A DNA stretch of 64,000 bases. It comes from a virus. The translations under genes and the position numbers were made by a program. The stretch is from positions 168,551-232,550 of IMG/VR virus record IMGVR_UViG_3300032046_000001; one strand, given 5' to 3'. Below the pieces are notes generated by a model. It saw only the letters and a list, made by a program, of their open reading frames with translations, ran no database searches and was not told where the DNA came from. Positions 3,201 to 61,315 of this stretch are shown one piece after another; the first letter of the stretch is position 1, and each line of letters opens with the position of its first letter.

Positions 3201-3394
3201 TTTAATCGATTTGTGAAATCAGAAATTATTCTTCCAGCAAAATATATTTTAATGTCATGATTCTTTTCACACCACTCTATAAGTGATTCATCAGTCGTAA
3301 AAAATCTTTTTATTACATCGGTGGAAGAATCACTATAAATTAATAAATATTCTGCACTATTATCGAATTTATATCTGTTTCTAAGTCTTCCCAT
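3197..3394 (-). CDS. Hypothetical small protein
   Basis: 65 residues (MGRLRNRYKFDNSAEYLL), no recognised motif. Preceded by a good AAGGAGG ribosome site about 6 nt before ATG. Ends in a 4-nt overlap with the next leftward gene. Confidence 0.55.
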   Translation of the reverse strand: MGRLRNRYKFDNSAEYLLIYSDSSTDVIKRFFTTDESLIEWCEKNHDIKIYFAGRIISDFTNRLK

Positions 3395-3409
3395 TTTTCC
3401 TCCTTGATA

Positions 3410-3622
3410 TTATTTTCTCCAGTTATTTTTTTCAGCAAACCATATTTTAAAATCTTCAGGAGAACTAAATCCATCACTATACCACTTAAAAAAATCCTGT
3501 TGAGTTTTAAATTCTTGATTTAATTCAGGATCATGACTTCCTCCTTCTGGAGTCATATCAACAAAAAATCTCTTATCTTTATCATCAACCCAACCTTCAG
3601 ACATCCAATCATAATATATCAT
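3410..3622 (-). CDS. Hypothetical small acidic protein
   Basis: About 70 residues, rich in Asp, Phe and Trp (MIYYDWMSEGWVDDKDKRFF). I chose the ATG at 3622, which overlaps the stop of the release-factor-like gene (ATGA), over an in-frame extension to 3634. No family recognised. Confidence 0.55.
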   Translation of the reverse strand: MIYYDWMSEGWVDDKDKRFFVDMTPEGGSHDPELNQEFKTQQDFFKWYSDGFSSPEDFKIWFAEKNNWRK

Positions 3623-3969
3623 TCTTCGATCCACCTTCCATCTATTACTACTTCAATTTTTAGATTTTCTTCTTTCATTTCACGATCAACTTTTCTTTCA
3701 ATTTCTTTTTCGTCGTGGTCAATTTCAAATATTTTCTTTTGTAACCATAATTTAAATATTTTTGATTCTGTCAATCTTTTAAACGCATTTTTTTTATTTT
3801 GACCTTGTGATCTTTCTTCACGGGATTCACCAACGGCACCGGAGTCCCTATGTACTATACGAACGCCAGAATTTACTTTATTTACATTTTGTCCTCCAGC
3901 ACCTGAACACCTAAATGTTTGTACTTCAAAATCTTTTTTTGTTACTGAAAATAATAATTCTTTAGACAA
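3619..3969 (-). CDS. GGQ-domain peptidyl-tRNA hydrolase / release-factor-like protein
   Basis: 116 residues carrying the class-I release-factor catalytic loop: CSGAGGQNVNKVNSGVRI, with GGQ at about 24-26, followed by SREERSQGQNKKNAF, the conserved RSQxxNxxxA element. It lacks the codon-recognition domains of RF1/RF2 and ends in a basic, helical tail, so it resembles ArfB/YaeJ-type ribosome-rescue hydrolases (about 140 residues) or stand-alone RF domains known in phages. Expected role: hydrolysing peptidyl-tRNA on stalled ribosomes. Start appears to be TTG at 3967-3969 behind AGGTAGG. It is the first gene of the leftward run that ends at the window edge. Confidence 0.85.
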   Translation of the reverse strand: MSKELLFSVTKKDFEVQTFRCSGAGGQNVNKVNSGVRIVHRDSGAVGESREERSQGQNKKNAFKRLTESKIFKLWLQKKIFEIDHDEKEIERKVDREMKEENLKIEVVIDGRWIEE

Positions 3970-3992
3970 ATTAAAAACCTACCTTTCTTAAT

Positions 3993-4002
3993 GGGAACAA
4001 AT
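3993..4002 (+). promoter_or_regulatory. GGGAACAAA-type motif copy
   Basis: GGGAACAAAT lies 4 nt before the conserved homing-endonuclease leader. Closely related copies (GGGAACAAAATATTAA) occur at 12846, 15663, 53280, 53824 and 55580, all on the + strand. Role unproven; a phage transcription start or processing signal is the simplest reading. Confidence 0.4.
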
Positions 4003-4006
4003 AATT

Positions 4007-4058
4007 GAGAGATAGAACCCATGATTCGAAAAGAGAAAACCTTGATTCTCCTGCTCTC
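4007..4058 (+). promoter_or_regulatory. Conserved structured leader of HNH homing-endonuclease gene, copy 1
   Basis: GAGAG (4007-4011) can pair with CTCTC (4054-4058). Inside it, GAGAA pairs with TTCTC around a short loop, after a conserved ATAGAACCCATGATTCGAAAA stretch. Copies at 12862-12915 (+) and 36835-36887 (-) keep the same layout with different stem bases, and each lies 38-41 nt upstream of a NUMOD4/HNH gene. The structure is deduced by hand. Confidence 0.55.
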
Positions 4059-4072
4059 AGTTACTATCAAGG

Positions 4073-4092
4073 AATAACAACAAGGAGTTATT
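4073..4092 (+). promoter_or_regulatory. Hairpin with ribosome-binding site in its loop
   Basis: AATAAC (4073-4078) pairs with GTTATT (4087-4092); the 8-nt loop plus stem base holds AAGGAG, 10 nt before the ATG at 4098. Equivalent small hairpins with the ribosome site in the loop occur at 12936-12952 and 36798-36812, suggesting restrained translation of the nuclease. Confidence 0.4.
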
Positions 4093-4097
4093 AAAAA

Positions 4098-4691
4098 ATG
4101 AAAATTTATAAAAATTTAAATTTACAGGATTTAAATGGTGAAATCTGGAAAGTTATAGAAAATTTTCCAGATTATCAAGTTAGTAGTTATGGAAGAGTTA
4201 AATCACTAAAATGTAGAAAAGAATTAATAATTAAACAACATATAGATTCTAAAGGATATTTGCGTACATCTATATATAAAAAAGGTAAAAAAGTTCATAG
4301 ACTAGTTTATGAAACATTTAAAGAAAAATTAAATATAGATTATGATATCCATCATATAAATGAAAATAAAGAAGATAATAATATTAATAATTTGGAGAAA
4401 AAATCTCATATTTTACATTCAATTAATCACAATCCTAAAGGCAATAATCATAAAAATTATGGCAAACATCATTCTGAAGAATCAAAGATTAAAATAGGTA
4501 AAAATCATGTTGATATTCGTGGAATTAATAATCCAAGTAGTATATTATTAATTCAAGAAATTATTCAAATTAAATTATTATTAAAAGAAAAAATATTATC
4601 TCAAAAAGAAATAGCAGAAATATTTGAAGTTCATCCAATGACTATATCATCTATTAAAAATAAAAGAACTTGGTCATATATAATAATATAA
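4098..4691 (+). CDS. NUMOD4-HNH homing endonuclease
   Basis: 197 residues. A NUMOD4 domain at about 14-47 shows the signature WKVIENFPDYQVSSYGRVKS. An HNH nuclease core at about 80-110 contains DIHHINENKEDNNINNLE. The C-terminus (about 150-197) is a helix-turn-helix DNA-binding region (SQKEIAEIFEVHPMTISSIK). This is a free-standing homing endonuclease that would nick or cut a target in related phages to spread itself. It is the only + strand gene among leftward genes here, converging with the 4714-5784 gene through a shared terminator. Close relatives are at 12953 and 36338. Confidence 0.9.
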   Translation: MKIYKNLNLQDLNGEIWKVIENFPDYQVSSYGRVKSLKCRKELIIKQHIDSKGYLRTSIYKKGKKVHRLVYETFKEKLNIDYDIHHINENKEDNNINNLEKKSHILHSINHNPKGNNHKNYGKHHSEESKIKIGKNHVDIRGINNPSSILLIQEIIQIKLLLKEKILSQKEIAEIFEVHPMTISSIKNKRTWSYIII

Positions 4692-4698
4692 TATCATA

Positions 4699-4734
4699 AA
4701 AGAAACACCATCATTAATCTGATGGTGTTTCTTT
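4699..4734. terminator. Bidirectional hairpin terminator, 15-bp stem
   Basis: AAAGAAACACCATCA (4699-4713) pairs perfectly with 4720-4734 across a 6-nt loop. A-rich and T-rich flanks on both sides suit convergent termination of the homing endonuclease and the leftward 356-residue gene, whose stop codon lies in the loop. Confidence 0.85.
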
Positions 4735-5784
4735 CTCTTTAACTTCTTTCATTTCAACAATATCACCAATTATTTCAATACGTTTTTCATCTCGCTCTTC
4801 AGGAGTACCAAACCAAGTCAGCTCCCAGAAAATTGCCTTCATCGTTTCCAAAACTTTAAATTGTTTGTTTCCAAAATACTGTTTATCATGAAAATCATCA
4901 GAAGAGTAAATTTTGAAAACATTTTTCAATCTTAATTTCAATGTTTTCAAATAATTATTTGGAGTGAAACTTATACCATAGTAAATAAGACCATTCAGTC
5001 CCTCTGGGAGATAATCATCTTCACATGGTTCACCAATAGCATGAAAAGATGGCCATGATGTCAAAGTTTCATATTCAGCATCATGTTCAACATCCCAATA
5101 TATTTCGAGATATTTCAATTCTCCAGAACCACTGAATTCTTTTTTAGATTCTTCTATTATCGGTTTGATTCTTTCACCAGTAATAATCTCCCAAAGATCA
5201 ATATTGTTTTCAACAATATCAAATATTCTTCCAAGAGTAACATCATCATTTAATCTTACATTCTCCCATATGAAATGAATCAACTTATCAGGAGCAATAA
5301 TTTGTTCTTGTCTGCCTGCTTTCCAATAAGAACGAATTATTGAATTATTGGTTATTATGATACCTTCAAAATCATCTTCCTCTTCTTTCTCTGAAAAGAT
5401 ATGATATTTTTCATTTAAGCGTTTATCGAGTTCGGTTTTCCACTCTTTCTCAGTCCATCCATGATCAAGAAGAGTCTCATTCCACTTTCTCCACTGTTTT
5501 TTAGGTTGTTTAAAATCAGGACATAGAAGAATCATTTCCGATAACTCATCAAATATATTAGAAATCTCTTCATATGGTGTACGGACTTCTATACTATCTT
5601 TTGGTGGTATTTTAATAGAAACTGGAAATTCAAATGCCTCACCAAAAACAAGATCATTAACAGCTTTAAATTGAACTGACTTATTATATTGATTTCCCAA
5701 AAATTTTAAAATTCCATCATAATCATCGTGTGCAAAATGTATAACATACTCGCCATTTGGGTCATATATTTTGGTAAAAATCAT
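4714..5784 (-). CDS. Hypothetical 356-residue protein
   Basis: A large acidic, Trp-rich soluble protein without recognised motifs (starts MIFTKIYDPNGEYVIHFAHD; ends KEVKEKETPSD). The C-terminal tail is Glu/Lys-rich and probably disordered. It ends at the bidirectional terminator, so it closes the leftward unit coming from about 12.7 kb. No frameshift or truncation is visible. Function unknown. Confidence 0.65.
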   Translation of the reverse strand: MIFTKIYDPNGEYVIHFAHDDYDGILKFLGNQYNKSVQFKAVNDLVFGEAFEFPVSIKIPPKDSIEVRTPYEEISNIFDELSEMILLCPDFKQPKKQWRKWNETLLDHGWTEKEWKTELDKRLNEKYHIFSEKEEEDDFEGIIITNNSIIRSYWKAGRQEQIIAPDKLIHFIWENVRLNDDVTLGRIFDIVENNIDLWEIITGERIKPIIEESKKEFSGSGELKYLEIYWDVEHDAEYETLTSWPSFHAIGEPCEDDYLPEGLNGLIYYGISFTPNNYLKTLKLRLKNVFKIYSSDDFHDKQYFGNKQFKVLETMKAIFWELTWFGTPEERDEKRIEIIGDIVEMKEVKEKETPSD

Positions 5785-12952: not shown

Positions 12953-13573
12953 ATGAAAATATTTGAAAATTTAGAAAATGAATTGTGGAAAGTTATAATA
13001 GAATTTCCAGATTATTCTGTTAGTAATATTGGTAGAATTAAGTCATTAAAATTTGGAAAAGAAAAAATATTAAAACAATGTAAAGATGGTAAAGGTTATT
13101 TTTGTATTAATTTATATAAAAATGGAAAATGTAAGTTAAGAAAAATTCATATATTATTATACGAAACTTTTAATAATTATAAATTAAAAAATAATGAATG
13201 TATTCATCATAAAGATGAAAATAAAGAAAATAATAATTTTGATAATTTTAAGTTGATGACAAAATCTAAACATAGATATTATCACATGAAATATGATAAT
13301 AATCTAAGAAGTATGTTAGGAAAACATCATACTAATAATACCAAAAATATCATAAGTAAAACGATGAAAGAAAAATTTAAAAATAAAGAATTAAATTTAA
13401 AAGGTGAAAATCATCCAAGACACAAACTAACAGAAGAACAAGTAATTCAAATTAAATTATTATTAAAAGAAGGTATATTAACTCAACAAGAAATAGCTGA
13501 TATGTTTTGTGTTAGTCAAATGACAATTTCATATATAAAAAGAGGAAAACATTGGAACCATATAAAAATTTAA
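12953..13573 (+). CDS. NUMOD4-HNH homing endonuclease
   Basis: 206 residues. NUMOD4 at about 9-45 (WKVIIEFPDYSVSNIGRIKS), HNH core at about 80-105 (ECIHHKDENKENNNFDNF), and a C-terminal helix-turn-helix (LTQQEIADMFCVSQMTISYI). Free-standing mobile gene at the head of the rightward block, just before the endolysin. Its C-terminus is the closest match to the remnant at 8401, and its HNH core matches the segment fused into the gene at 33316. Confidence 0.9.
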   Translation: MKIFENLENELWKVIIEFPDYSVSNIGRIKSLKFGKEKILKQCKDGKGYFCINLYKNGKCKLRKIHILLYETFNNYKLKNNECIHHKDENKENNNFDNFKLMTKSKHRYYHMKYDNNLRSMLGKHHTNNTKNIISKTMKEKFKNKELNLKGENHPRHKLTEEQVIQIKLLLKEGILTQQEIADMFCVSQMTISYIKRGKHWNHIKI

Positions 13574-18239: not shown

Positions 18240-18914
18240 ATGGATGATACGCAAAAACAAAATTTTCAAATCGAGATATTTGAACAATACGGAGAACATT
18301 GTTTAAAAGACTGTCTTGGTTTAGTTGAAACTTCAGATCGAAAACCCAAGGGTTATGTAGAAATATATGAAATGACTCCTGAAGGTGAAAAGAAATTAGT
18401 TGGTAAATCTAATCTTGTACTTTATACAGGACGAGAATTTGTAGCACAATCTATTTTTGGTGTTGACAATCCCGCCGTAACATCATCATATAATGATCAT
18501 ATTTTTTGGTTTGGTGTTGGTGATGGTGGTGCTCCGATATTAGATCCATTGACACCAACTGCACCTACAAATACAGATACAGGTTTGGGAAATGATGTTG
18601 TAATAAGTTCTGATAGTACAAATGCTGATTATCGGATAACTCCAGTTGCTGGTTATTATAAGAAACCAATTTATTCAGTTGAATATCAACAAGATGTTTA
18701 TAATAACAATTCATATTTAATAGCAAAAGTTACTATGATATTAGATGCTGGTGATTCAGATGGTTATAATATAAGTGAAGCTGGATTATTTGCCTCACCT
18801 TCATCCGCAGGTGGATCTTCTGGACCGTTTACATGTTACGCTAGGGTAACTTTTCCATCTATTGTCAAAACTACAGCAAGAATTTTAACTATTATTTGGT
18901 ATGTATTTTGTTGA
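18240..18914 (+). CDS. Tail/virion structural protein
   Basis: 224 residues, beta-rich. TGREFVAQSIFG, FWFGVGDGGAP and the ending YNISEAGLF ... ARVTFPSIVKTTARIL-TIIWYVF form a pattern I know from tail-fibre-associated proteins of large myophages. A TGA stop at 18912-18914 ends the frame. The GIY-YIG homing endonuclease follows after 8 nt, typical of insertion beside a conserved structural gene. Precise role not determined. Confidence 0.6.
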   Translation: MDDTQKQNFQIEIFEQYGEHCLKDCLGLVETSDRKPKGYVEIYEMTPEGEKKLVGKSNLVLYTGREFVAQSIFGVDNPAVTSSYNDHIFWFGVGDGGAPILDPLTPTAPTNTDTGLGNDVVISSDSTNADYRITPVAGYYKKPIYSVEYQQDVYNNNSYLIAKVTMILDAGDSDGYNISEAGLFASPSSAGGSSGPFTCYARVTFPSIVKTTARILTIIWYVFC

Positions 18915-18922
18915 AAAAAATT

Positions 18923-19702
18923 ATGAATAGTTTTTATATCTATATTTATTTAGATCCAAGAAAATCTGGACAATATTGTTATGGTGATTTTTGTTTTTTA
19001 TTTGAACCAATCTATGTTGGAAAAGGAAAGAATGAAAGATGGAAAGATATATATCACAGAACAAAATATTTTAAAAATATACTAAATAAAATTAAAAATT
19101 CTGGGTTAGAACATATTGTTTTTAAATTATATGAAAATTTGAATGAAGGACAATCTTTTGAAAAAGAAATTGAATTAATAGAAGAAATTGGAAGAAAAAA
19201 TATAAAAACTGGATTTCTTGTTAATGAAACTATTGGTGGAGACGGATGTAGTGGATGTAAACGTAATAAAGAATCTATAAAACTAAGTTCTGAAAAACGA
19301 AGAAAAAATTTTCAAGAGATTAAAAATGAATTTGAAAATAGAGAATATATTTTATTAACAACAGAAATAGAATATAAAAACGCACACCAAAAATTGAAAT
19401 ATATTTGTTCAAAAGGACATAATGGTTCTATTAGATGGAATGATTTTCAACAAGGACAAGGTTGTTATATTTGTAAATATGAATCACATTCTAAAAATCA
19501 GAGAAAAAACTTTGATGAGATTAAAAAAGAATTTGAAAATAGAGGTTATAAATTATTAACGAAAGAAGAAGAATATAAAAATAATAAACAAAAATTAGAT
19601 TATATTTGTCCAAAAGGCCATAATGGTTTAATAGATTGGAGTCATTTTCATCGAGGACAAGGTTGTTCAAATAATATTTGTTTAATAAAAAATAAATTAT
19701 AA
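18923..19702 (+). CDS. GIY-YIG homing endonuclease with tandem zinc repeats
   Basis: About 259 residues from ATG 18923 ([16 protein letters not shown]). The GIY-YIG core is FYIYIY ... PIYVGKGKNERW (Tyr and Gly-Lys-Gly conserved). The C-terminal half holds two copies of a zinc-finger-like repeat, each of form EFENR-Y-LLT ... Y-C-KGH ... W-F-GQGC. No good ribosome site precedes the ATG, so translation may be coupled to the upstream gene. Free-standing mobile gene inserted between a structural gene and the tail sheath; same family start as those at 60491 and 63853. Confidence 0.88.
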   Translation: MNSFYIYIYLDPRKSGQYCYGDFCFLFEPIYVGKGKNERWKDIYHRTKYFKNILNKIKNSGLEHIVFKLYENLNEGQSFEKEIELIEEIGRKNIKTGFLVNETIGGDGCSGCKRNKESIKLSSEKRRKNFQEIKNEFENREYILLTTEIEYKNAHQKLKYICSKGHNGSIRWNDFQQGQGCYICKYESHSKNQRKNFDEIKKEFENRGYKLLTKEEEYKNNKQKLDYICPKGHNGLIDWSHFHRGQGCSNNICLIKNKL

Positions 19703-19808: not shown

Positions 19809-21767
19809 ATGTGTGCAGTTAATATTTCACCGGGCGTGTATACTAAAATTATTGACCTGAGTACTTACGTCCAAGCAGTCCCAGGTACTATTGGTTTTAT
19901 CTGTGCTCTGACCGAGAAAGGTAGAGACAATGAATTAATATTCGTTGGTTCTCGAAGTGAGTTAATTAGCGAATTTGGGGAACCCAACATTAATACTTAT
20001 GGTGTTTCTTATGGTCAAGGGCTTTACGAAGCTTATAATTATCTTGGTGAGTCTGGATCTCTTTATTTTATGAGATGCCTCCCAGATGATGCAGCTTACT
20101 CTAATTTAAGACTTGATGCCACATTAGCTTCCACTGACAGTAGTGCGAGTATTACTATTAGTTATGTTGATGATATTAATAACAATACAACTGATATTAC
20201 TACAGCACTAACAGCATCGGGTGACACAAAACGACTCTGTATATTCTATCCTATTGGTCGTGGACAGTACTATAACGGCCTTGGTATCAGAATTACAGAT
20301 CACTCTAATCCATTACTGTTCGGTGTATATGTTCTTGATATATATGAAAGACAAAGTGATGGAACTGATGTTATCATAGAATCTTTTGATATTTCATTTG
20401 ATCCTACAGCCAAAGACAATTCTGGTGCATCAATTTATATTGAAGATGTTTTAAAAACATATTCTTCAGTATTGAGGGCACAAGTTGGTTCTTCTGGTTA
20501 TGATCTGATTGCAAAAGTATATGATAAAAATATTGGTACTATTAGTGTTGAATTAACTTCTGGTTCAGCTTCATTAACCGATGATAAACAAGATTTTTCA
20601 GATTGGGAAAATGTGACTGAAACTGGGTGGTCAACTTATATTGTTATCGCTAAAGACGGTAAAGGTAAAACCATCTATGGTTGGGCTGGCGCAGCTACTG
20701 GATCTGATGATGATGAAATTAAAGTTTTTAATTACAGAAACATCGATTCTACAAATGTCACGGTTATACAAGCATGGTCTGGTGATACAGATACATTCGA
20801 TGTTGATTCTGAAATTACTTATATTATTAAGAAATCAAATACATCAGTTTCAACAGCTTTCTTGTCATCTACACCGAAACCTTTGAAAAAGGGGTCAGAT
20901 GGTGCTATACTTGATGGTACTGGAGATATTGTTACCGCTGAGGCAACTGAAGTTTTGGCTAATGGTTATGCTGGTACAATATACCCTGATATTTTAGATA
21001 CTGATAATATTTATTTTACACTTATATTTGATGCTGGTTATCCAACCGATGTCAAAGCACAAATTGTAACTTTAGCTCAAACTCGTGCTGACTGTATTGC
21101 TATCTGTGATAATGGTGATAATTCATCTTATACTACTTCAATATACGCCAGACAAAATAGTCATAAATACAATACTTATCTTGCTGCTTTGTATGAAGAA
21201 TATAACAAGGTATATGATATATTCACTGGAAAAGATGTTTGGTTTTCACCAATATTTCATATGTCATATTTACTTCCTCGAAATGATGCAGTGTCAGAAC
21301 TTTGGTATGCTGCTGCTGGTTTCAACAGAGCTTCTATTAGTACAATTAAAGAACTGAGATTCAATCCTAGATTGGGTCAACGTGATCAAATGTATCTTAA
21401 TCAGATTAATCCTATTGTTAAATTTACAGCAGGTTATGTTGTTTGGGGTCAGTTGACTACACAATCCAAAGCTTCAGCTTTACAAGATTTGAATATTGCC
21501 AGATTGGTTCTTTATATTAAACGAGCATTGGAGCAATATTGTAGAAACTTTCTATTCGAGCAAAATGACCAAGTTACTTGGGGTCAAGTAAGTAATGATG
21601 TAACTTCTTTTCTTGAGTCAGTAAAAAAGAAACGTGGTCTTTATAGTTATACGGTAGATGTTGGGGCAAGTGATTATGAAAAGAAGACTAAAACATTTCA
21701 TTGTAACGTCACTCTTGAACCAGTTAGAACTGTAGAGAAAGTCGAACTTAATTTTTATATAAAATAA
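19809..21767 (+). CDS. Tail sheath protein
   Basis: 652 residues, the size of T4 gp18. The N-terminus ISPGVYTKIIDLSTYVQAVP and the C-terminal half (QSKASALQDLNIARLVLYIK, then an FEQND helix and a final beta segment VEKVELNFYIK) match contractile tail sheaths. It polymerises around the tail tube and contracts on infection. The second sheath gene at 23949 is clearly paralogous at both ends. A strong terminator follows at 21788. Codon use is less A+T-skewed than in the flanking endonucleases, as expected for an abundant virion protein. Confidence 0.92.
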   Translation: MCAVNISPGVYTKIIDLSTYVQAVPGTIGFICALTEKGRDNELIFVGSRSELISEFGEPNINTYGVSYGQGLYEAYNYLGESGSLYFMRCLPDDAAYSNLRLDATLASTDSSASITISYVDDINNNTTDITTALTASGDTKRLCIFYPIGRGQYYNGLGIRITDHSNPLLFGVYVLDIYERQSDGTDVIIESFDISFDPTAKDNSGASIYIEDVLKTYSSVLRAQVGSSGYDLIAKVYDKNIGTISVELTSGSASLTDDKQDFSDWENVTETGWSTYIVIAKDGKGKTIYGWAGAATGSDDDEIKVFNYRNIDSTNVTVIQAWSGDTDTFDVDSEITYIIKKSNTSVSTAFLSSTPKPLKKGSDGAILDGTGDIVTAEATEVLANGYAGTIYPDILDTDNIYFTLIFDAGYPTDVKAQIVTLAQTRADCIAICDNGDNSSYTTSIYARQNSHKYNTYLAALYEEYNKVYDIFTGKDVWFSPIFHMSYLLPRNDAVSELWYAAAGFNRASISTIKELRFNPRLGQRDQMYLNQINPIVKFTAGYVVWGQLTTQSKASALQDLNIARLVLYIKRALEQYCRNFLFEQNDQVTWGQVSNDVTSFLESVKKKRGLYSYTVDVGASDYEKKTKTFHCNVTLEPVRTVEKVELNFYIK

Positions 21768-21849: not shown

Positions 21850-23880
21850 ATGTATAAATGTGAAATTTGTGGAAGAGAATTTAAAAATATATCGGCATTG
21901 GTTTCTCATATATCAAATCCAAATAAAAGTTGTAAAATATCAATAAAAGAATACTATGATAAATATTTAAGAAAGGAAAATGAAGGATATTGTAAAATTT
22001 GTGGAAAAGAAACTGGTTTTCATAGTATCGTTAAAGGATATAAATATAATATATGTGGAGAATGTAAAAATATTAATCCAGAATATATAAAAAAACAAGT
22101 AAATTCTAGATATAAAACAATTAAAAAATTCAAATCAACTAAATTAGAAAAAAATTATCACAACTTTAATATTCAATGTAAAATATGTCATAAAAAATTT
22201 AAAAATTATAGTGGATTATCAAAACATATATACCAAATTCATAAAATTTCTATAGAAGATTATTATTTAAAATATATAAATTCAAATAAAAATATTTGTA
22301 CTGTTTGTGATAAAGAAACCAATTTCGATTGTTTAGAAAGAGGATATTATAAATTTCATAGAAATTGTTCCTCTAAAGATTTAGTAATAAGAAAAAAAAT
22401 AAATAAAAGTTTTAAAGAAAGTTTCAAAAATATTAATCAAGAAAAAAGAATTGAAAAATACAAAGAAACTAGAAATAAAAATAATGAAATTAAAATATTA
22501 AGAAAAAAATTAATTTTTATTTTAAAAATATTATCTATTAATAAAAGTAATAAAAAACAATGTCAAATTTGTGGTGAAATATTCAATACATACAATGGTA
22601 TAATTTCACATATACGTAAACATAAAATTGATTTAAAAAAATATTATGATAAATTTTTTAAATTAGAAAATGAAGGAGTATGTTCAGTATCTGATTTAAA
22701 AACTAATTTTTCAAGTTTAGAAAACGGATATTGTCAATATTGTAAAAATTATCAACAAAAAGATCTGAAATTAATAAATAATAATAAAATTTTACAATCT
22801 GGTAGACTAAGAGAAAAAATATTAAAATACCAAAATAATTTTAATATTGAATTTATAAATATAGATAAAATACATAAAAATAATGATATGACAAATATTA
22901 AATGTTTGGATTGTGGTCATATATATCAAAATAGATGGTATAATGTAATATTGGGATATGGTAAATGTCCAATATGTCATCCAAGAAATCAAAAAATTTC
23001 ATCATATGAAATAGAAATATATAATTTTATAAGAGAAATAGATAAAGATATAAAAATTTTAACTAGTTATTTTGGATTGATTAAAAATAAAAATAATAAA
23101 AGTTTAGAACTTGATATTTATATTCCAGAAAAAAATATAGCGATTGAATTTGATGGTCTATATTGGCATTCCGAAGAACAGGGAAAAGATAAAAATTATC
23201 ATCTATTAAAAACAGACGAATGTAATAAAAAAGGAATAAGATTAATTCATATATTTGAGGATGAATGGGTTTTGAAACGTAATATATGTGAAAATAAATT
23301 AAAACAAATATTAAATTTTAATAAAAATATTAATCGAATTCATGCTCGTAAATGTGAAATAAAAGAAATTGATTCAAAATTAAAAAATGAATTTCTTAAT
23401 AAATATCACTTACAAGGTTCAGATTCATCTAATATAAAATTAGGTGCTTTTTATAATAATGAATTAATATCAGTTATGACTTTTTCACATGGAAATATTT
23501 CAAAAGGTTCTAAAAATATTGAAGGAGTGTATGAATTAAATCGTTTTTGTTCTAATTATAATTATCATATTCCAGGTATAGCAAGTAAATTATTATCATA
23601 TTTTAAGAAGAATTATGAGTGGAAAGAACTTTATTCTTATGCTGATAAACGATGGAGTTTAGGAAATTTGTACTATAAACTTGGTTTTGAACTTGTTAGT
23701 GAATCATTACCAGAATATTGGTATGTAAGTAATAATGGAATAAAAAGAATTCATAGATTCAATCTTCGTAAACGTCCAAATGAACCTAAAGATATTACAG
23801 AAGCAGTATTACGTTCTAAAGAAGGTTATCATAGAATATATGATTGTGGACATTTAAAATTTAAGATGATTAAAACATAG
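21850..23880 (+). CDS. Vsr-like (EDxHD-type) homing endonuclease with zinc fingers
   Basis: 676 residues. Three C2H2-like fingers (starting C-EICGREFKN-L-H, CKICHKKFKN, CQICGEIFNT) with interleaved C-x2-C units (CKICGKETGF, CTVCDKETNF) occupy about 1-310. A CLDCGHIYQNRW / CPICHPRN ribbon leads into the catalytic part at about 385-480: SYEIEIYNFI ... ELDIYIPEKNIAIEFDGLYW-H, the very-short-patch-repair fold of I-Bth0305I-type homing nucleases. A C-terminal domain (LGAFYNNELISVMTF) follows. It sits precisely between the two sheath paralogues, where duplicated sequence would help it home. Confidence 0.85.
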   Translation: MYKCEICGREFKNISALVSHISNPNKSCKISIKEYYDKYLRKENEGYCKICGKETGFHSIVKGYKYNICGECKNINPEYIKKQVNSRYKTIKKFKSTKLEKNYHNFNIQCKICHKKFKNYSGLSKHIYQIHKISIEDYYLKYINSNKNICTVCDKETNFDCLERGYYKFHRNCSSKDLVIRKKINKSFKESFKNINQEKRIEKYKETRNKNNEIKILRKKLIFILKILSINKSNKKQCQICGEIFNTYNGIISHIRKHKIDLKKYYDKFFKLENEGVCSVSDLKTNFSSLENGYCQYCKNYQQKDLKLINNNKILQSGRLREKILKYQNNFNIEFINIDKIHKNNDMTNIKCLDCGHIYQNRWYNVILGYGKCPICHPRNQKISSYEIEIYNFIREIDKDIKILTSYFGLIKNKNNKSLELDIYIPEKNIAIEFDGLYWHSEEQGKDKNYHLLKTDECNKKGIRLIHIFEDEWVLKRNICENKLKQILNFNKNINRIHARKCEIKEIDSKLKNEFLNKYHLQGSDSSNIKLGAFYNNELISVMTFSHGNISKGSKNIEGVYELNRFCSNYNYHIPGIASKLLSYFKKNYEWKELYSYADKRWSLGNLYYKLGFELVSESLPEYWYVSNNGIKRIHRFNLRKRPNEPKDITEAVLRSKEGYHRIYDCGHLKFKMIKT

Positions 23881-23948: not shown

Positions 23949-26900
23949 ATGGCAAATATATCAGCGGGTGTATATACCAAAATTATTGATCTCTCCACTT
24001 TCGTACAAATAGTTCCGAGTACTATTGGTTTTATTTGTGCGTTGACTGAGAAAGGTGAGGACAATAAACTTAAATTTCTTGGTTCAAGAAGTGAACTGGT
24101 TGATGAATTTGGTTCACCAAATATTTCAACATATGGACAACAATATGGGCAAGGTCCGTATGTTGCTTACAATTATTTAGGCGAGTCTGGTTCTTTATAT
24201 TTTATGAGATGTCTTCCAGATGATGCTACATACTCCAATTTACGAATATATGCGAATTCTGATACAACTACCGCACTTTTTATTGATTATGTTCCAAGTT
24301 TGAATTCTACTGCTGATATAACAACCGCAATGCAAGTATTTGGAAATAATACACCACTTGTTATTTTTTATCCGATAGGTAGAGGTACTTATTATAATAA
24401 TATAGGAATTGAAATTACAGAAGATGAAACACATGCTGATGAGGGTGTTTATAATATAGACATATATGAAACTCAATCTGATGGATCATATACTTTAATT
24501 GAATCTTTTAAAATATCATTTGATAGTTCCGCAATTAGTACAAATCCAGGTGAATCAATTTATGTTGAACATGTTTTAGAAACATATTCTAAAGTTCTTA
24601 GAGCTAAAGTTGGTAAAGATGGTTTTGATTTAATCGATAAAATATATACAACAGAAGTTCATACAATAACTCCAACTGGACAAGATGTTACTGATGTAGA
24701 TGTTTCTTCATCTGGATCTACTAGTTATATAGATAGTACGAGCATAATAAATATAGACTCAACGGAAATAATAATTATTGATTCTACTACTGTTGAACAT
24801 GTTCAAGTATATGATGGTTCTTCGTGGGCAACTACACCATCTTTAAATCAAGCAAGAAGAGGTTTGGCTGGTTGTGGTAGTACCGTTGGTGCCTTAAGTG
24901 TGGGTGGTGGAACTACGGCTGTAGTGGCTACTACAGAGAAGTGGAATAGCCATACTTTTGCTGGATTGTGGTTTACAACTTCAGCTTTAAATACTGCGAG
25001 ATATTATTTAGCCGGATGTGGTACTGTAACTGCGAGTTTAAGTTTTGGTGGTGGAACTGTTGCCGTTGTAAATACAACTGAAAAATGGAATGGTTCTTCG
25101 TGGGCAACTACTGGTAGTTTAACTCAAACTAAAAGTAATGTGTCTGGATGTGGAACTACAACTGATGCGTTATGTATGGGTGGTGGAACTACGGCTGTAG
25201 TAAATACTACAGAGAAGTGGAACGGTTCTACTTGGGCAACCACAAATGCACTAAATGTGGCTAAATATCGTTTAGCATCATGCGGAACAACTTCTGATGC
25301 TCTTAGTTTTGGTGGAAATACTAATAGTGCTTCTGATTCGGCTAGTACAAGTATAACAGAAATATGGAATGGTTCAACTTGGTATACAGGATCTAATTTA
25401 AATCAAGCTAGATATTATTTAGCTGGATGTGGAACTACATCAGACGCCTTAGCTTTTGGTGGTTGTTCAACAGCATCGTCTGCGTATGTTAATACTACTG
25501 AAAAGTATAGTGGTGCTACACTTGGTTATATTTGGGCAAGTACTTCTAGTTTAAATATTGTAAAACATCTTGCTGCCGGTTCTGGTAATATGACAGATGC
25601 TCTATCTTTTGGTGGATATAGTGGTTCAACTACTAGTATAACTGAAAAATGGAATAATGTGGTGTGGAGCACTGTTAATAATTTAAATCAGGCAAGATTT
25701 TCTCTTTGTGGATGTGGAACTACAAGTGATTCGTTATCTTTTGGAGGAAGCACCACAAATGTAGTATTAAAAAATACAGAACGATGGAATGGATCATCGT
25801 GGTCAACTACAGCAAACATTAATACTGCACGTCATCTTGCTGCTGGTTGTGGAATAATTTCTTCTGCTCTCGTACTTGGTGGGAATACTAACGCTGCTGA
25901 TGGTTCAAGTCAAAATGCATTAACAGAAGTTTGGACTGGATATTCTTGGTATACTGCAACCAATTTAAATGAATCTAAATATTATATCGCTGCGTGTGGT
26001 ACAACTTCTGGTGCTTTATGTTTTGGTGGTTCAACAGCAGAAACAAGTGCGTATGTAAATACAACTGAAAAATGGTCAACATCAGTATTTGATTATATTT
26101 GGACTACAACATCTGTTTTAAATCAAGGTAGATATCAAACATCAGGTTGTGGTGATTCAAACAATGCATTGGTTTTTGGTGGATATACTGGTGCTGTCAT
26201 AAACACTACAGAAATATGGTCAGTATCTTCTTGGGCAACTACTACAAATATGACACTAGGAAGAAATCATTTATCTGGTTGTGGTAATACAACAGATGCA
26301 TTAAATTTTGGTGGTGTTAGTTCAACAACACGAGCAACAACTGAAATTTGGAATGGTTCTTCGTGGGCAACAACATCAAATTTAAATACTGCGAGATTTT
26401 CATTGACTGGATGTGGGGTTACATCAGGTGCATTAAGCATTGGTGGAGAAACAGGAACAGCACCAGTTAATAATGTTGAAATATGGAATGGTTCTTCATG
26501 GGTAACTACAACGGCAATAAGTGTTGCTAAATATGGATTGGCTGGATGTGGTACAACAACTGACGCTTTAAGTTTTTGCGGTTGGACAGCATCCGTAACA
26601 GTTGCAACAACAGAAATATGGAATGGTTCTTCGTGGGCAACTACTACTTCATCAACACAACAGAGATATTACTTAGCGGGTTGCGGAACCACTTTAGATG
26701 CTTTAAATTTTGGTGGTAGTACTAGTTTTAGTCAAAGACGAACAACAACTGAAAAATGGAACGGTTCATTATGGGCAACTGTAAATGGTTTAAATGTAGC
26801 TAAAGATTACTTGGCTGGATGTGGTGCTACTAATGCAGCATTAAGTTTTGGTGGTTCTTCTGGTTCATCACCATATGATATTACAGAAAAATATTTACAA

Positions 26901-29900
26901 TTGGACATTGGATCGTGGGTAACAACATCTGCGTTAAATACCGCTAGAAGAGGTTTGGCTGGATGTGGAACTACTTCTAATGCCTTAAGTTTTGGTGGAT
27001 ATAGTGGTGCATCAATAAATGTAACCGAAATATGGAATGGATTGCTTTGGACAACCGGAAATCCTTTAAATATTCCAAGATATAATTTATCAGGGTGTGG
27101 TGCCACTAATGCAGCATTAAGTTTTGGTGGATTTATGGGTTCAACAGTATCAACTACAGAAAAATACGCAGAATTCTCAGTCGGGTCGTGGGTAACTACA
27201 ACAGCGTTAACTTCTACAAAACGTTCTTTGGCTGGATGTGGAACAACTTCTGACGCTTTATGTTTTGGTGGATATACTGGTTCTGCAACTGGTATTAACG
27301 TAACTGAATTATGGAATGGTTCGTTATGGGCTACTACAAATATTTTAAATCAAACTAGATATGGTTTGGCTGGTTCTGGTGATTCTCTTAACGCATTATC
27401 TTTTGGTGGATATACTGGAGCAGTAATCAATACAACTGAAATATGGACACAAACCTATTTTGATTATTGGACATTAACTTCATCATTGAATCAAGCCAGA
27501 GAATACTTAGCCTCAAGTGGAGATACATCAGGTGCTTTAGCGTTTGGTGGTGGAACTACTGCTGTTGTTAATTCAACTGAAAAGTGGAGTGGTTCTTCTT
27601 GGGTTACTACCTCGGCTTTAAATACTGCTATAAGAGGTTTGGCTGGATGTGGAACTGTAACTGATACATTGTCTATTGGTGGTGGGACTACTACGGTTGT
27701 TAATACTACTGAAAAATGGAATGGAAGTTCTTGGACAACAACATATGGATTAAATCAATCTCGATTTGATTTGGCGGCATGTGGTACTACATCAGACGCC
27801 CTATGTTTTGGTGGTGGAACTACTGCTGTTGTAAATACTACTGAAAAATATTCTCAAGTTGTATCTAATATATGGGCTACTACAAATAGTATGACCGTTG
27901 GAAGAAAGAAACTTGTCGGTATTGGTACTGTTTATGATGCTTTGTCTATGAGCGGTTCAACTGGAACAAATAAAACAGAAATATGGAATGGTTCTTCTTG
28001 GGCAACTACAACTAATTTAAACTATGGTAGATATTTTGCAGCCGGTTCTGGAATAACTTCTGATGCGCTTATTTTTTCAGGTAATACAACACCGTCAACA
28101 GAAAAATGGAATGGTAGTACATGGAGCACTACAAATGATATTAATAATATATTGCTCGCTCCTGCTGGTGTTGGAACTACGAGTGCCACAATATCTTTTG
28201 GTGGTGGAACGACAACGGATGGTAGTGGTATTCCTATTACTTTTTCAAAACCCGGTCAAATATGGTATGGATCTGGTTGGTATACTGCATCATTATTAAA
28301 TGTTGGAAGAGCATTACTTGCTATGAGCGGAACAACATCTGATGCTCTCGCTTTTGGTGGAAATACAGCAGGTGGATATACAGCACCTACCACTGCAACA
28401 GAAAAATTTAGTATTGCAACCCAAAATAATATATGGGCAACAACATCTAATATGGTTGTAGCTAAACAAGAACCTGAAGAATGTGGTGATGTTAATAGTA
28501 GTTTAGTATTTGGTGGATATACTACTGATGTATCTAATAAAACCGAAATATGGAATGGTTCATCATGGGCAACTACAACCAATATGGTTGCTACAATACG
28601 AAAACATGCAGGTTGTGGTACAACTTCTAATGCTCTTAGTTTCGGTGGTCAAACTACAAATAAAACAGAAATATGGAATGGTTCTTCTTGGGCAACTACC
28701 AGCAATCTAGATCAAAATCGTATTGGTCTTGCTGGATGTGGAACAACATCTGATACTCTTGGTTTCGGTGGTGGTACTACTGTGGATGGATATGGTACAG
28801 TAATCGGATGGATCACTTCTTCAGTAATCTGGAATGGATCAGTTTGGACTACAACTGCTGGACTAAATCAACCAAGATCTATGTTAGCTGGTTGTGGTAA
28901 TACAACAGATGCTCTTTCTTTTGGTGGAACAACGGCTGGAGGATATACTGGTGAAGTTACGACTACTGAATTATGGAATGGATCATCATGGACTACAACA
29001 ACTGCTACCACATTTGCAAGATTTTCAAATTCGGGTTCTGGTAATACATCATCAGCATTATGTTTTGGTGGTGGTCCGGTATATTCAACACCAACAACTA
29101 TCGTTGATTATTGGAATGGATCGATATGGGCAACAACATCAGTATTAAATATTGCACGAAATGATGGTGCTGGTAGTGGAACGGGATCAAATGCTCTTAG
29201 TTCTGGTGGTTATACTGGCAGTAGTGTAAATACTACGGAAAAATATACACAGTTTTCTATTGGAGCATGGGCAACAACAAGTGCTTTAAATTTATCCCGT
29301 TATGGTTTGGCTGGTTGTGGAACTACAAATGCATCTCTTGCCTATGGAGGTTCAACAGGTACTGGTGTTCCAAGATTAAGTACGGAAATATGGAATGGTT
29401 CATCATGGGCGACTACAATGGATCAAACTGTAGCACGACAATATCAAGCTGGTTGTGGAACAACTGCTGCTGCTTTAAGTTTTGGTGGTGAAACATATGC
29501 AAGTTCGTCTTATAATACAACAGAAATTTGGCTTCCAGTTTTATATGGCGCGTGGGCAACTACAAGTGCTTTAAATCAAGCCAAATCTAAATTATCAGGT
29601 TGTGGAACTACTACAGACGCTTTAAGTTTTGGTGGTGATTCTAATAGTGGTAATGTTGTATCTACAACTGAAATATGGAATGGTTCTTCATGGGCTACTA
29701 CATCAGCTTTAAATGTCGCTAGACAATATTTAGCAGGTTGTGGGACAACATCCGACGCTCTAAGTTTTGGTGGTGGAACTACTGCTCAAGTAAATACTAC
29801 TGAAAAATGGTATGCTACATATCATACTAACACAATAGTTCATCATATAGAAACACCGGAAATTATTCATGTTGTTACACCACATGTTATTCATACGATT

Positions 29901-31097
29901 ACACCAGTCATTACTGATGTATTTCAATTAATTGATAATAATCAAGATTTTACTCCTTGGTCAACAGATCCAGAAACTGGTACTGCTCAATATATTGCAA
30001 TTGTTAAAGATTCTTTCAACAGAACAATATGGGGATGGTTAGGATCTACATCAGAATACGGAACAGTAGTTAATATATGGAAAAATAATAATTTAGATAC
30101 TTCAGATAGAGGTTGGAATGGTGATACTTCAACTTTTGATTATAATGATGAAAATATAACTTATCAAATTAAAAAATCTGATGTTTCAATTCCAGATTTA
30201 TTTTCAGTTAAGACTCTTAGAAAAGGTTCTGATGGATCATTAGTTCTAAAAGGGACTTTTGATGAAGATATTGCTACTCAAATATTATCACAAGGTTATG
30301 CTGGATTGATTGACAGTAATGTTCTTGATATTGATGGTACTTATTTTAGTTTGGTATATGATGCTGGTTATCCAAAAGATGTTAAAGATCAAATTGTAGG
30401 TTTAGCACAAGCCAGAGGTGACTGTGTAGCTATCATTGATAATGGTGACAATATTTCAGTTAATAGTTCTATTTTATCACGTAAAAATAATTATCAATAT
30501 AATACTTATTATGCCTCTATATTTGAATCATATAATAGAATATTTGATATTTTTACAGAACGACAAATTTGGTTTTCACCATGTTATCACTTAGGTTATA
30601 TATTACCAAGAAATGATAAGATAGGAGAACTTTGGTTTGCTGCTTCGGGTAATAATAGAGGTAGTTGTAGAGATATTAAAGAACTTAGATTCAGTCCAAA
30701 TCAATCACAACGTGATATGTTATATGGTTATCAAATAAATCCGATAATTAAACAAAATACTGATTATGTTTTATGGGGTCAATTAACATCACAAAGTAAA
30801 GCATCAGCTTTACAAGATCTAAATATAGTTAGATTACTTCTTTATATTAAACGTGGTGTTCAACAATATGCAAATAATTTTATATTTGATGACAATTCTC
30901 AATTAGTTTGGAACACTGTAAGGAACGATGTTACCGACTTCTTAGAACAAATTAAAAAGAGACGTGGGTTAATTAATTACACAATCAATGTTGGTGCTAC
31001 ACTGTTAGAAATAAAAAATAAAACTTTTCATGTTGATATTATATTAGAACCTACAGGTACTACGGAAAAAATTGAACTGAATTTTTATATCAAATAA
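23949..31097 (+). CDS. Giant tail sheath paralogue with inserted kelch-like beta-propeller array
   Basis: 2382 residues in one uninterrupted frame. Residues 1 to about 240 (ISAGVYTKIIDLSTFVQIVP) and about 1990-2382 (ending EKIELNFYIK) align with the 652-residue sheath at 19809. Between them, about 295-1955 is a run of roughly 36 repeats of 42-52 residues with consensus LN-AR-LAGCGTTSDAL-FGG ... TTEKWNGSSWATT, a kelch/galactose-oxidase-like blade. Short Thr/Ile beta segments (YIDSTSIINIDSTEIIIIDS; VHHIETPEIIHVVTPHVIH) flank the array. The simplest reading is a minor or decorating sheath subunit that displays propellers on the outside of the contractile tail, perhaps for adhesion. It is preceded by a homing endonuclease and followed by a small gene and a terminator. 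Confidence 0.9.
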   Translation: MANISAGVYTKIIDLSTFVQIVPSTIGFICALTEKGEDNKLKFLGSRSELVDEFGSPNISTYGQQYGQGPYVAYNYLGESGSLYFMRCLPDDATYSNLRIYANSDTTTALFIDYVPSLNSTADITTAMQVFGNNTPLVIFYPIGRGTYYNNIGIEITEDETHADEGVYNIDIYETQSDGSYTLIESFKISFDSSAISTNPGESIYVEHVLETYSKVLRAKVGKDGFDLIDKIYTTEVHTITPTGQDVTDVDVSSSGSTSYIDSTSIINIDSTEIIIIDSTTVEHVQVYDGSSWATTPSLNQARRGLAGCGSTVGALSVGGGTTAVVATTEKWNSHTFAGLWFTTSALNTARYYLAGCGTVTASLSFGGGTVAVVNTTEKWNGSSWATTGSLTQTKSNVSGCGTTTDALCMGGGTTAVVNTTEKWNGSTWATTNALNVAKYRLASCGTTSDALSFGGNTNSASDSASTSITEIWNGSTWYTGSNLNQARYYLAGCGTTSDALAFGGCSTASSAYVNTTEKYSGATLGYIWASTSSLNIVKHLAAGSGNMTDALSFGGYSGSTTSITEKWNNVVWSTVNNLNQARFSLCGCGTTSDSLSFGGSTTNVVLKNTERWNGSSWSTTANINTARHLAAGCGIISSALVLGGNTNAADGSSQNALTEVWTGYSWYTATNLNESKYYIAACGTTSGALCFGGSTAETSAYVNTTEKWSTSVFDYIWTTTSVLNQGRYQTSGCGDSNNALVFGGYTGAVINTTEIWSVSSWATTTNMTLGRNHLSGCGNTTDALNFGGVSSTTRATTEIWNGSSWATTSNLNTARFSLTGCGVTSGALSIGGETGTAPVNNVEIWNGSSWVTTTAISVAKYGLAGCGTTTDALSFCGWTASVTVATTEIWNGSSWATTTSSTQQRYYLAGCGTTLDALNFGGSTSFSQRRTTTEKWNGSLWATVNGLNVAKDYLAGCGATNAALSFGGSSGSSPYDITEKYLQLDIGSWVTTSALNTARRGLAGCGTTSNALSFGGYSGASINVTEIWNGLLWTTGNPLNIPRYNLSGCGATNAALSFGGFMGSTVSTTEKYAEFSVGSWVTTTALTSTKRSLAGCGTTSDALCFGGYTGSATGINVTELWNGSLWATTNILNQTRYGLAGSGDSLNALSFGGYTGAVINTTEIWTQTYFDYWTLTSSLNQAREYLASSGDTSGALAFGGGTTAVVNSTEKWSGSSWVTTSALNTAIRGLAGCGTVTDTLSIGGGTTTVVNTTEKWNGSSWTTTYGLNQSRFDLAACGTTSDALCFGGGTTAVVNTTEKYSQVVSNIWATTNSMTVGRKKLVGIGTVYDALSMSGSTGTNKTEIWNGSSWATTTNLNYGRYFAAGSGITSDALIFSGNTTPSTEKWNGSTWSTTNDINNILLAPAGVGTTSATISFGGGTTTDGSGIPITFSKPGQIWYGSGWYTASLLNVGRALLAMSGTTSDALAFGGNTAGGYTAPTTATEKFSIATQNNIWATTSNMVVAKQEPEECGDVNSSLVFGGYTTDVSNKTEIWNGSSWATTTNMVATIRKHAGCGTTSNALSFGGQTTNKTEIWNGSSWATTSNLDQNRIGLAGCGTTSDTLGFGGGTTVDGYGTVIGWITSSVIWNGSVWTTTAGLNQPRSMLAGCGNTTDALSFGGTTAGGYTGEVTTTELWNGSSWTTTTATTFARFSNSGSGNTSSALCFGGGPVYSTPTTIVDYWNGSIWATTSVLNIARNDGAGSGTGSNALSSGGYTGSSVNTTEKYTQFSIGAWATTSALNLSRYGLAGCGTTNASLAYGGSTGTGVPRLSTEIWNGSSWATTMDQTVARQYQAGCGTTAAALSFGGETYASSSYNTTEIWLPVLYGAWATTSALNQAKSKLSGCGTTTDALSFGGDSNSGNVVSTTEIWNGSSWATTSALNVARQYLAGCGTTSDALSFGGGTTAQVNTTEKWYATYHTNTIVHHIETPEIIHVVTPHVIHTITPVITDVFQLIDNNQDFTPWSTDPETGTAQYIAIVKDSFNRTIWGWLGSTSEYGTVVNIWKNNNLDTSDRGWNGDTSTFDYNDENITYQIKKSDVSIPDLFSVKTLRKGSDGSLVLKGTFDEDIATQILSQGYAGLIDSNVLDIDGTYFSLVYDAGYPKDVKDQIVGLAQARGDCVAIIDNGDNISVNSSILSRKNNYQYNTYYASIFESYNRIFDIFTERQIWFSPCYHLGYILPRNDKIGELWFAASGNNRGSCRDIKELRFSPNQSQRDMLYGYQINPIIKQNTDYVLWGQLTSQSKASALQDLNIVRLLLYIKRGVQQYANNFIFDDNSQLVWNTVRNDVTDFLEQIKKRRGLINYTINVGATLLEIKNKTFHVDIILEPTGTTEKIELNFYIK
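24830..29815 (+). repeat. About 36 coding kelch-like repeats
   Basis: Counted by hand from recurring AL-FGG and NGSSWATT units. The period is about 126-156 bp at DNA level, with synonymous scatter between copies, so it is an old array under protein-level selection rather than a fresh tandem duplication. Some units carry 5-10 extra residues in the loop after FGG. Confidence 0.9.
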
Positions 31098-53881: not shown

Positions 53882-54796
53882 TTGAAGTGTAAAATATGTG
53901 AAAAAGAACTTAAAGATTCATTAAAATCTTTGGCACAACATATATTAAATAATCATAAAGAAATTGGAATAAAAAATTATTATGATGAATATTTTAAAAA
54001 AGAAAAAGAGAATGTTTGTTTAGAATGTGGAAAAGAAACTAAATTTGAAGGTTTGAAAAAAGGTTATAGACAGTTTTGTTCAACCAAATGTTCAAATTCA
54101 AATAAAAATAAATTAGAAAAAACAAGAGAAATAAATTTAAATAAGTATGGTGGTACGGGATTTCAAGTCAAAGAACTTTCTGATAAATCGAGAAAAACAA
54201 CCAAAGATAAATATGGAGTAGAATTTGGAAGTCAGTCTAAAGAAGTTCAAAAGAAACAAATAGAAACCTTTAGAAAAACTTTAGGTGTCGATTGGCCATC
54301 CCAAAATAGAGTGGTAAGAGAAAAACAAGTTAAAACATTACAACATAAATATAATACTGATAATCCAATGAAGGTTGAAAAAATTAAAAATAAACAACAT
54401 GAAAGTATGTTGAAGAAGTATGGCGTAGAAACTTATTCTCAGACACAAGAGTGGAGAAATAAGATGTTAAATGGTTTTGCTTCTCATGTATATTCTTTTG
54501 TTAAAAATCCCTCAAAACCACAGGTTAAAACTTTTGAACTTGTAAAAAGTATATTCGGAGAGGCTGTTTTAAATTTTCCTATATATGAAATAAATAGAAT
54601 TATTGACGTTGCAATACCATCCTTAAAGATTGCGATTGAATATGATGGTTCTTACTGGCATAAAGATGAAAATTTAGATATAATTCGTCAAAGAGAAGTG
54701 GAAAATTTAGGATGGAAATTTATACGGTACAGAGATCGTATTCCGAGTTTAGAAGAACTTAAATACGACATTGATAAAATAACAAACATTAGCTAA
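53882..54796 (+). CDS. Homing endonuclease, zinc finger plus Vsr/DUF559-like nuclease
   Basis: 304 residues; start TTG 53882 behind AAAGGAGG. One C2H2-like finger (CKICEKELKDSLKSLAQHI), a CLECGKETKF unit, and several KYGV-E-SQ repeats (KYGVEFGSQSKEVQ, KYGVETYSQTQEW) that occur in mobile nucleases. A C-terminal PD-(D/E)xK/Vsr-like core follows (IDVAIPSLKIAIEYDGSYW-H). Free-standing; placed just before the tail tube gene. Confidence 0.83.
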   Translation: MKCKICEKELKDSLKSLAQHILNNHKEIGIKNYYDEYFKKEKENVCLECGKETKFEGLKKGYRQFCSTKCSNSNKNKLEKTREINLNKYGGTGFQVKELSDKSRKTTKDKYGVEFGSQSKEVQKKQIETFRKTLGVDWPSQNRVVREKQVKTLQHKYNTDNPMKVEKIKNKQHESMLKKYGVETYSQTQEWRNKMLNGFASHVYSFVKNPSKPQVKTFELVKSIFGEAVLNFPIYEINRIIDVAIPSLKIAIEYDGSYWHKDENLDIIRQREVENLGWKFIRYRDRIPSLEELKYDIDKITNIS

Positions 54797-60490: not shown

Positions 60491-61315
60491 ATGAATAATT
60501 TTTATATTTATGTTTATTTAGATTCCAGAAAGCCTGGAAAACATTGTTATGATAATATCTGTTTTTTATATGAACCAATTTATATTGGAAAAGGAAAAAA
60601 TGATAGATGGAAAGTTATTAATGGAAGAACTCCAATTTTTATTAATAAATTTAATAAAATTAAAAAATATGGGTTAAAACCAATTGTTATAAAGTTATAT
60701 GAAAATTTAAATGAAAATTTATCTCTTGAACTAGAAAAAAAATTAATTATTGAAATTGATAAAATAAATCCTGGAATTCTTATTAATATGACCAGTGGTG
60801 GTGAAGGAACGAGCGGGTATATACACACAGATGAAACAAAAAAAAGATTATCAGAGATAAGGAAAAATAAACAAATATCATTAGGTCAAAATAATCCAAT
60901 GTTTGATATTCATCGTTTTGGGAATAATGCACCACATTTTGGAAAAAAACATTCAGAAGAATCAAAAATTAAAATAAGTGAAAATAGAAAAGGAAAAAAT
61001 ACTGGAAAAGATAATCATAATTTTGGAAAACATCTTCCTAAAGAAACAAGAAATAAAATTAGTGAAAAACATAAAGGAAAATATATTTCACAAGAAACAA
61101 AAGTAAAACTATGTGAAAAACGTAAAAATAAAAAAGGAAATAATAGTCCAAACCATAAACTAACAGAACAACAAGTTATCCAAATAAAAATATTATTAAA
61201 AGAAGGAAATTTAACTCAACAAGAAATTGCCGATATGTTTGGAGTTAGTTCTATAACAATTTCAAAAATAAAAACAGGAAAAATTTGGTCGCATATTAAA
61301 TTGGGAGAAAATTAA
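60491..61315 (+). CDS. GIY-YIG homing endonuclease with NUMOD3 and HTH
   Basis: 274 residues. GIY-YIG core FYIYVYLDSRKPGKH ... PIYIGKGKNDRW at 3-40. NUMOD3-like repeats follow in the middle (HFGKKHSEESKIKISENRKG, NFGKHLPKETRNKISEKHKG), then the C-terminal helix-turn-helix (LTQQEIADMFGVSSITISKI). The C-terminus is nearly the same as the remnant at 8401. Stop/start overlap with the gp6-like gene (1 nt). Confidence 0.9.
   Translation: MNNFYIYVYLDSRKPGKHCYDNICFLYEPIYIGKGKNDRWKVINGRTPIFINKFNKIKKYGLKPIVIKLYENLNENLSLELEKKLIIEIDKINPGILINMTSGGEGTSGYIHTDETKKRLSEIRKNKQISLGQNNPMFDIHRFGNNAPHFGKKHSEESKIKISENRKGKNTGKDNHNFGKHLPKETRNKISEKHKGKYISQETKVKLCEKRKNKKGNNSPNHKLTEQQVIQIKILLKEGNLTQQEIADMFGVSSITISKIKTGKIWSHIKLGEN

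Follow-up and report, generated by a model that had tools for sequence, protein, structure and literature searches.

The 64-kb stretch of DNA analysed here (the window) was taken from an IMG/VR virus record of 312,420 bp, and it encodes two tail sheath proteins from closely spaced genes on the same strand (Table 1). Because the source is an IMG/VR virus record, this giant phage is uncultured and known from metagenomes alone; a search of genome contigs with the sheath found no relative that could point to its host. The upstream gene encodes a plain sheath protein. The downstream gene, here called the kelch-sheath gene, occupies 23949..31097 (+) and encodes 2382 amino acids in a single open frame with no internal stops.

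The gap between the two sheath genes is filled by a homing endonuclease gene, which is a mobile element and lies outside the sheath device. Endonuclease-like genes, judged by sequence, sit in the same gap in the related contigs L009, L010, L011 and L087, and the sheath genes of L005 are adjacent without an intervening endonuclease. The window contains at least five HNH/homing-type endonuclease genes (12953-13573, 18896-19702, 21850-23880, 53882-54796 and 60491-61315), several of which adjoin structural genes, and the one at 18896-19702 contains a 201-bp tandem repeat of 1.8 copies.

Table 1. Positions of the sheath genes, kelch arrays and associated features in the window and in related contigs (res, residues of the encoded protein)
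Feature	Position	Strand	Evidence or remark
Plain sheath protein (652 aa), presumably the bulk subunit	19809..21767	+	Phage_sheath_1C 2.4e-8; phrog_19666 4.1e-74; phrog_23 4.4e-47
Homing endonuclease separating the two sheath genes	21850..23880	+	phrog_3339 6.6e-92; phrog_559 2.1e-88
Kelch-sheath, N-terminal sheath part, res 1-241	23949..24671	+	64% identical to plain sheath (match from residue 2); phrog_19666
N-side stalk-like strand, res 242-292	24672..24824	+	octads IDSTSIIN/IDSTEIII/IDSTTVEH, read from sequence
36 contiguous kelch blades, res 293-1955	24825..29813	+	blade HMM; kelch-only PDB matches; reversed control
Blades 2-19, missing from L004	24969..27467	+	in-register difference of 18 blades; junction falls within blade 2/20
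C-side stalk-like strand, res 1956-1992	29814..29924	+	octads TPEIIHVV/TPHVIHTI/TPVITD, read from sequence
Kelch-sheath, C-terminal sheath part and stop codon, res 1993-2382	29925..31097	+	Phage_sheath_1C; 55% identical to plain sheath
Tandem sheaths: plain, 12-blade, about 36-blade	L005 7149-20708
Stand-alone fibre-like kelch gene, exactly 6 blades	L011 1491-2507		short N-terminal domain first
Stand-alone fibre-like kelch gene, exactly 12 blades	L008 704-2542		short N-terminal domain first; linker after sixth blade
459-aa protein	L189 8294-9670; L192 5162-6538		CBM/DUF642-like part plus four blades

Sheath ends, stalk-like flanks and kelch blades

An initial annotation, made from the sequence of the window, had proposed that both ends of the 2382-residue protein are tail sheath and that a long repeat array is spliced between them. 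Profile searches and alignment bear this out. Pfam and PHROG sheath profiles match the protein, the two ends align with the 652-aa sheath at the identities given in Table 1, and the array interrupts the sheath at a single site, following about residue 241. When the ends were separated and searched individually, sheath families were matched at both: the tail-sheath family phrog_19666 scored 3.4e-26 with residues 1-300 and 4.6e-37 with the last 465 residues. The C-terminal sheath domain PF17482 (Phage_sheath_1C) was found in the whole protein at 3.8e-6 (27.3 bits, against a cutoff of 26.9) and in the isolated C-terminal part at 3.9e-7 (30.5 bits). The N-terminal sheath part is likewise present and intact.

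In known sheaths, terminal strands join neighbouring subunits. Both the N- and the C-terminal strands of the sheath are conserved in the kelch-sheath, the latter retaining the motif EKIELNF. An AlphaFold model of an ortholog, L005_k1, places the segments flanking the insert mostly at pLDDT 65-88 in a model whose overall confidence is low (46.7), and a Foldseek search with this model returned the tail sheaths of P1 and phiKZ as its top PDB matches (E 2e-5 to 4e-4). Taken with the retained sheath ends, this model makes it plausible that a kelch-sheath subunit is taken up into the sheath, its propellers carried on a loop.

The array is flanked on each side by a low-complexity strand with a period of eight, and from this pattern we infer that the two strands may form a paired beta stalk. 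In a longer relative, L005_k2, the outgoing strand is enlarged into a hexapeptide array of roughly 150 residues (about 25 units of [IL][IV]D[TA]T[SAC]) that precedes the blades, and VTTPEI(V/T) motifs in the linkers between its blade groups resemble the C-side strand of the window.

A hidden Markov model built from the blades of the window's own kelch-sheath finds exactly 36 contiguous units with domain E-values of 5e-14 to 3e-24, so that the estimate of roughly 36 blade-like repeats at residues 295-1955 holds with boundaries of 293-1955. The kelch assignment is also upheld. In a phmmer search of the PDB with a 341-aa piece of the array, all 60 of the 60 matches listed are kelch propellers, with KLHL12 the best (8.7e-12) and Keap1 and the designed protein SAKe6 among the others; the reversed piece, used as a control, gave a single non-kelch match at E=0.5. 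With KLHL12, Keap1 and SAKe6, which are six-bladed propellers, the array shares a GG doublet and the W/Y...W spacing in each blade, but it differs from them in having 36 blades on one chain, within another protein, and in escaping the Pfam kelch models. Since those models detect no Kelch family in the kelch-sheath up to E=1, the kelch assignment rests on the phmmer matches and the array belongs to a divergent kelch family. A single-blade profile gave no PDB match at 0.01. The families phrog_27227 and phrog_19111, both without assigned function, match the array. Structure prediction left the propellers unresolved: the model of the L004 insert, made with six sequences, had a pLDDT of 26 and was discarded, and the array is also unfolded in the model of L005_k1.

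Relatives, blade number and selection

Of the 147 distinct full-length sheath reading frames collected, five carry an insert, namely those of the window and L004, L005_k1, and L005_k2 in two copies; the other 142 are insert-free. All of the second sheaths fall in one clade (support 100/99). Ten records of the wider clade, 106-277 kb in length and none rated complete, have one sheath apiece and no match to the array.

The closest relative is L004, whose DNA is 96% identical to the window over the 3' four kilobases and 90% identical at the 5' end, and whose second sheath is the same gene with 18 blades. L005 and L006 have three sheaths in tandem, namely a plain protein of 649 aa, a 12-blade protein of 1292 aa (L005_k1, with the blade model weak at two of the blades, which were therefore counted by eye) and a copy of 2565 aa (L005_k2). 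The blades of L005_k2 stand in linker-separated groups of 6|6|6|5|6|6, the fourth of which has six in L006. The contigs of L010 and L011 stop within the first blades of the second sheath, and those of L009 and L087 are truncated upstream of any blade.

The 36 blades had been suggested to form either six six-bladed or five seven-bladed rings. Counts of 36, 18, 12 and 6, the last seen in a stand-alone gene, together with the linker-separated sextets, point to six-bladed rings; of the two arrangements it is thus the first that the relatives favour, and five rings of seven are less well accommodated. Within the window itself, the blades show no similarity of period six, which counts against six-fold rings, and the extended junctions, which follow blades 1, 5, 9, 15, 17, 19, 22, 26, 32 and 34, do not recur every six. 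The four-blade protein of L189 and L192 is an exception to multiples of six. In both contigs its gene adjoins one that reads, by eye, like a terminase ATPase, and the phrog_27227 match at the four-blade gene crosses one stop codon.

Substitution rates distinguish the parts of the protein. When the window is compared with L004, the sheath parts of the kelch copy have dN/dS values of 0.14 and 0.06; compared with L005_k1 they have values of 0.16-0.17, and the array has 0.37. Purifying selection acts on these sheath parts, and the array is less constrained.

Proposed role, precedents and alternatives

In type 3 multi-domain sheaths (T4 gp18, phiKZ gp29, PBS1/AR9), as in the kelch-sheath, variable domains are inserted between N- and C-terminal parts of a core; their extra domains are mostly Ig-like, and helical in AR9/PBS1, whereas the kelch-sheath carries a 1,660-residue kelch array in a duplicated copy (PMC9230969). 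The added domains of published sheaths point away from the tube (PMC9230969). The initial annotation knew of no sheath with such an insertion, and a literature search of openly licensed papers likewise found no kelch or propeller insert in a sheath.

We consider it rather likely that the kelch-sheath is built into the sheath lattice as a minor subunit and holds its propellers outward for surface binding. The sheath gene would have been duplicated and one copy would have become a dedicated kelch-bearing subunit, whose N- and C-terminal parts would polymerise with the plain sheath. A stalk rising from a loop in the outer part of the sheath would lift the propellers, perhaps six of six blades each, off the tail surface. 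On account of its steric bulk (252 kDa against 72 kDa, at six copies per ring), the subunit is likely to be scarce and restricted to a single ring or a few. The propellers would most probably act as multivalent, low-affinity binders of glycans or proteins on the host surface or in the environment. Tail rings carrying the kelch-sheath would then probably bristle with binding domains.

Two jumbo phages offer partial parallels. Pseudomonas phage PaBG has two sheath proteins, both in the structural proteome, and like the phage of the window it is a jumbo phage with a diverged sheath pair from gene duplication; unlike the kelch-sheath and its partner, the PaBG proteins are equal in size (about 58 kDa each) and lack an added domain (PMC7412058). 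The sheath of phAPEC6 bears hairs at three ring positions along its length (PMC7247149). The ring-positioned hairs of phAPEC6 and the two-component sheath of PaBG are precedents for the two halves of the decorated-ring proposal, and neither phage has been described as having a kelch array in its sheath (PMC7247149, PMC7412058). The hairs of CBB and phAPEC6 are filaments on the sheath surface (PMC5259590, PMC7247149). CBB also has kelch-like proteins, one of which, CBB_552, is in the virion; these are encoded by separate genes, unlike the sheath-embedded array (PMC5259590). A profile comparison of the array with the CBB kelch proteins aligned them at the GG motif with low probability.

The propellers could instead be structural, clamping adjacent rings or the neck or baseplate end of the sheath, or holding other fibres, with no binding to the host. 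We regard this as unlikely, although added sheath domains have been proposed as tail stabilisers (PMC9230969) and arrays of differing length could label different rings, for example in the three-sheath phage L005. The change from 36 to 18 blades between relatives with 96% DNA identity over their shared 3' part, and the faster evolution of the array (dN/dS 0.37, against 0.06-0.14 for the sheath parts), are more in keeping with a flexible binder than with a fixed clamp. The stand-alone kelch genes of L008 and L011 suggest a further reading, in which the kelch-sheath is made yet functions outside the tail, as a free binder, decoy or assembly factor, with its sheath ends as leftovers. This is improbable given that both sheath ends are whole, that purifying selection acts on them (dN/dS 0.06-0.17) and that the conserved terminal strands would be needless in a free protein.

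Purine-rich, ribosome-binding-like sites precede both sheath genes, and this would suit a kelch-sheath that is the main subunit, with propellers over the whole tail and the plain sheath as the minor component. Such an arrangement is very improbable, since the plain sheath is the sole kind in the wider clade and 36 blades per subunit in every ring would presumably cause extreme crowding. Finally, repeats misassemble easily and two contigs terminate in the first blades, as would be expected if the gene were an assembly artefact or a chimera of a kelch gene and a sheath gene. This we find scarcely credible, because the amino-acid identity among the window's blades is only about 48% and because the same fusion recurs with diverged sequence on separate contigs (the window, L004, L005/L006, L010 and L011). 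Misassembly could nevertheless have put the array length off by a few blades; L005 and L006 differ by one.

If the kelch-sheath is indeed a minor, outward-facing subunit, it bears on the hairs that electron microscopy has revealed on jumbo-phage sheaths, which have yet to be assigned genes or a mode of anchoring (PMC5259590, PMC7247149). An appendage carried within the chain of a sheath paralog would provide a concrete and testable genetic basis for hairy tails, and the gene is a lead on how such tails might be built. The sheath, usually a mechanical spring, could thus also serve as a scaffold that displays a propeller array far exceeding 1,000 residues. As a tentative extension, one that we put forward with more doubt than conviction, tail whiskers might arise by sheath duplication plus a stalked propeller insert, producing decorated rings whose reach would be set by the gain or loss of whole six-blade propellers; two such paralogs would make two differently armed rings.

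Further observations in the related records

In L139 (43-2013) the sheath gene is present as two adjoining reading frames of 317 and 339 aa, reflecting a frameshift or an assembly error. In Synechococcus phage S-SKS1 (L194), the gene at 3363-5212 has different GG-containing repeats (SYGYFGGG...IDRIDFSNET), and a weak match to the array sits in an unannotated stretch 3' of it. The first 540 bp of L005 (1-540, minus strand) read, by eye, like an RtcB RNA ligase broken by the start of an intein (GCFTGNTKILLADGTT).
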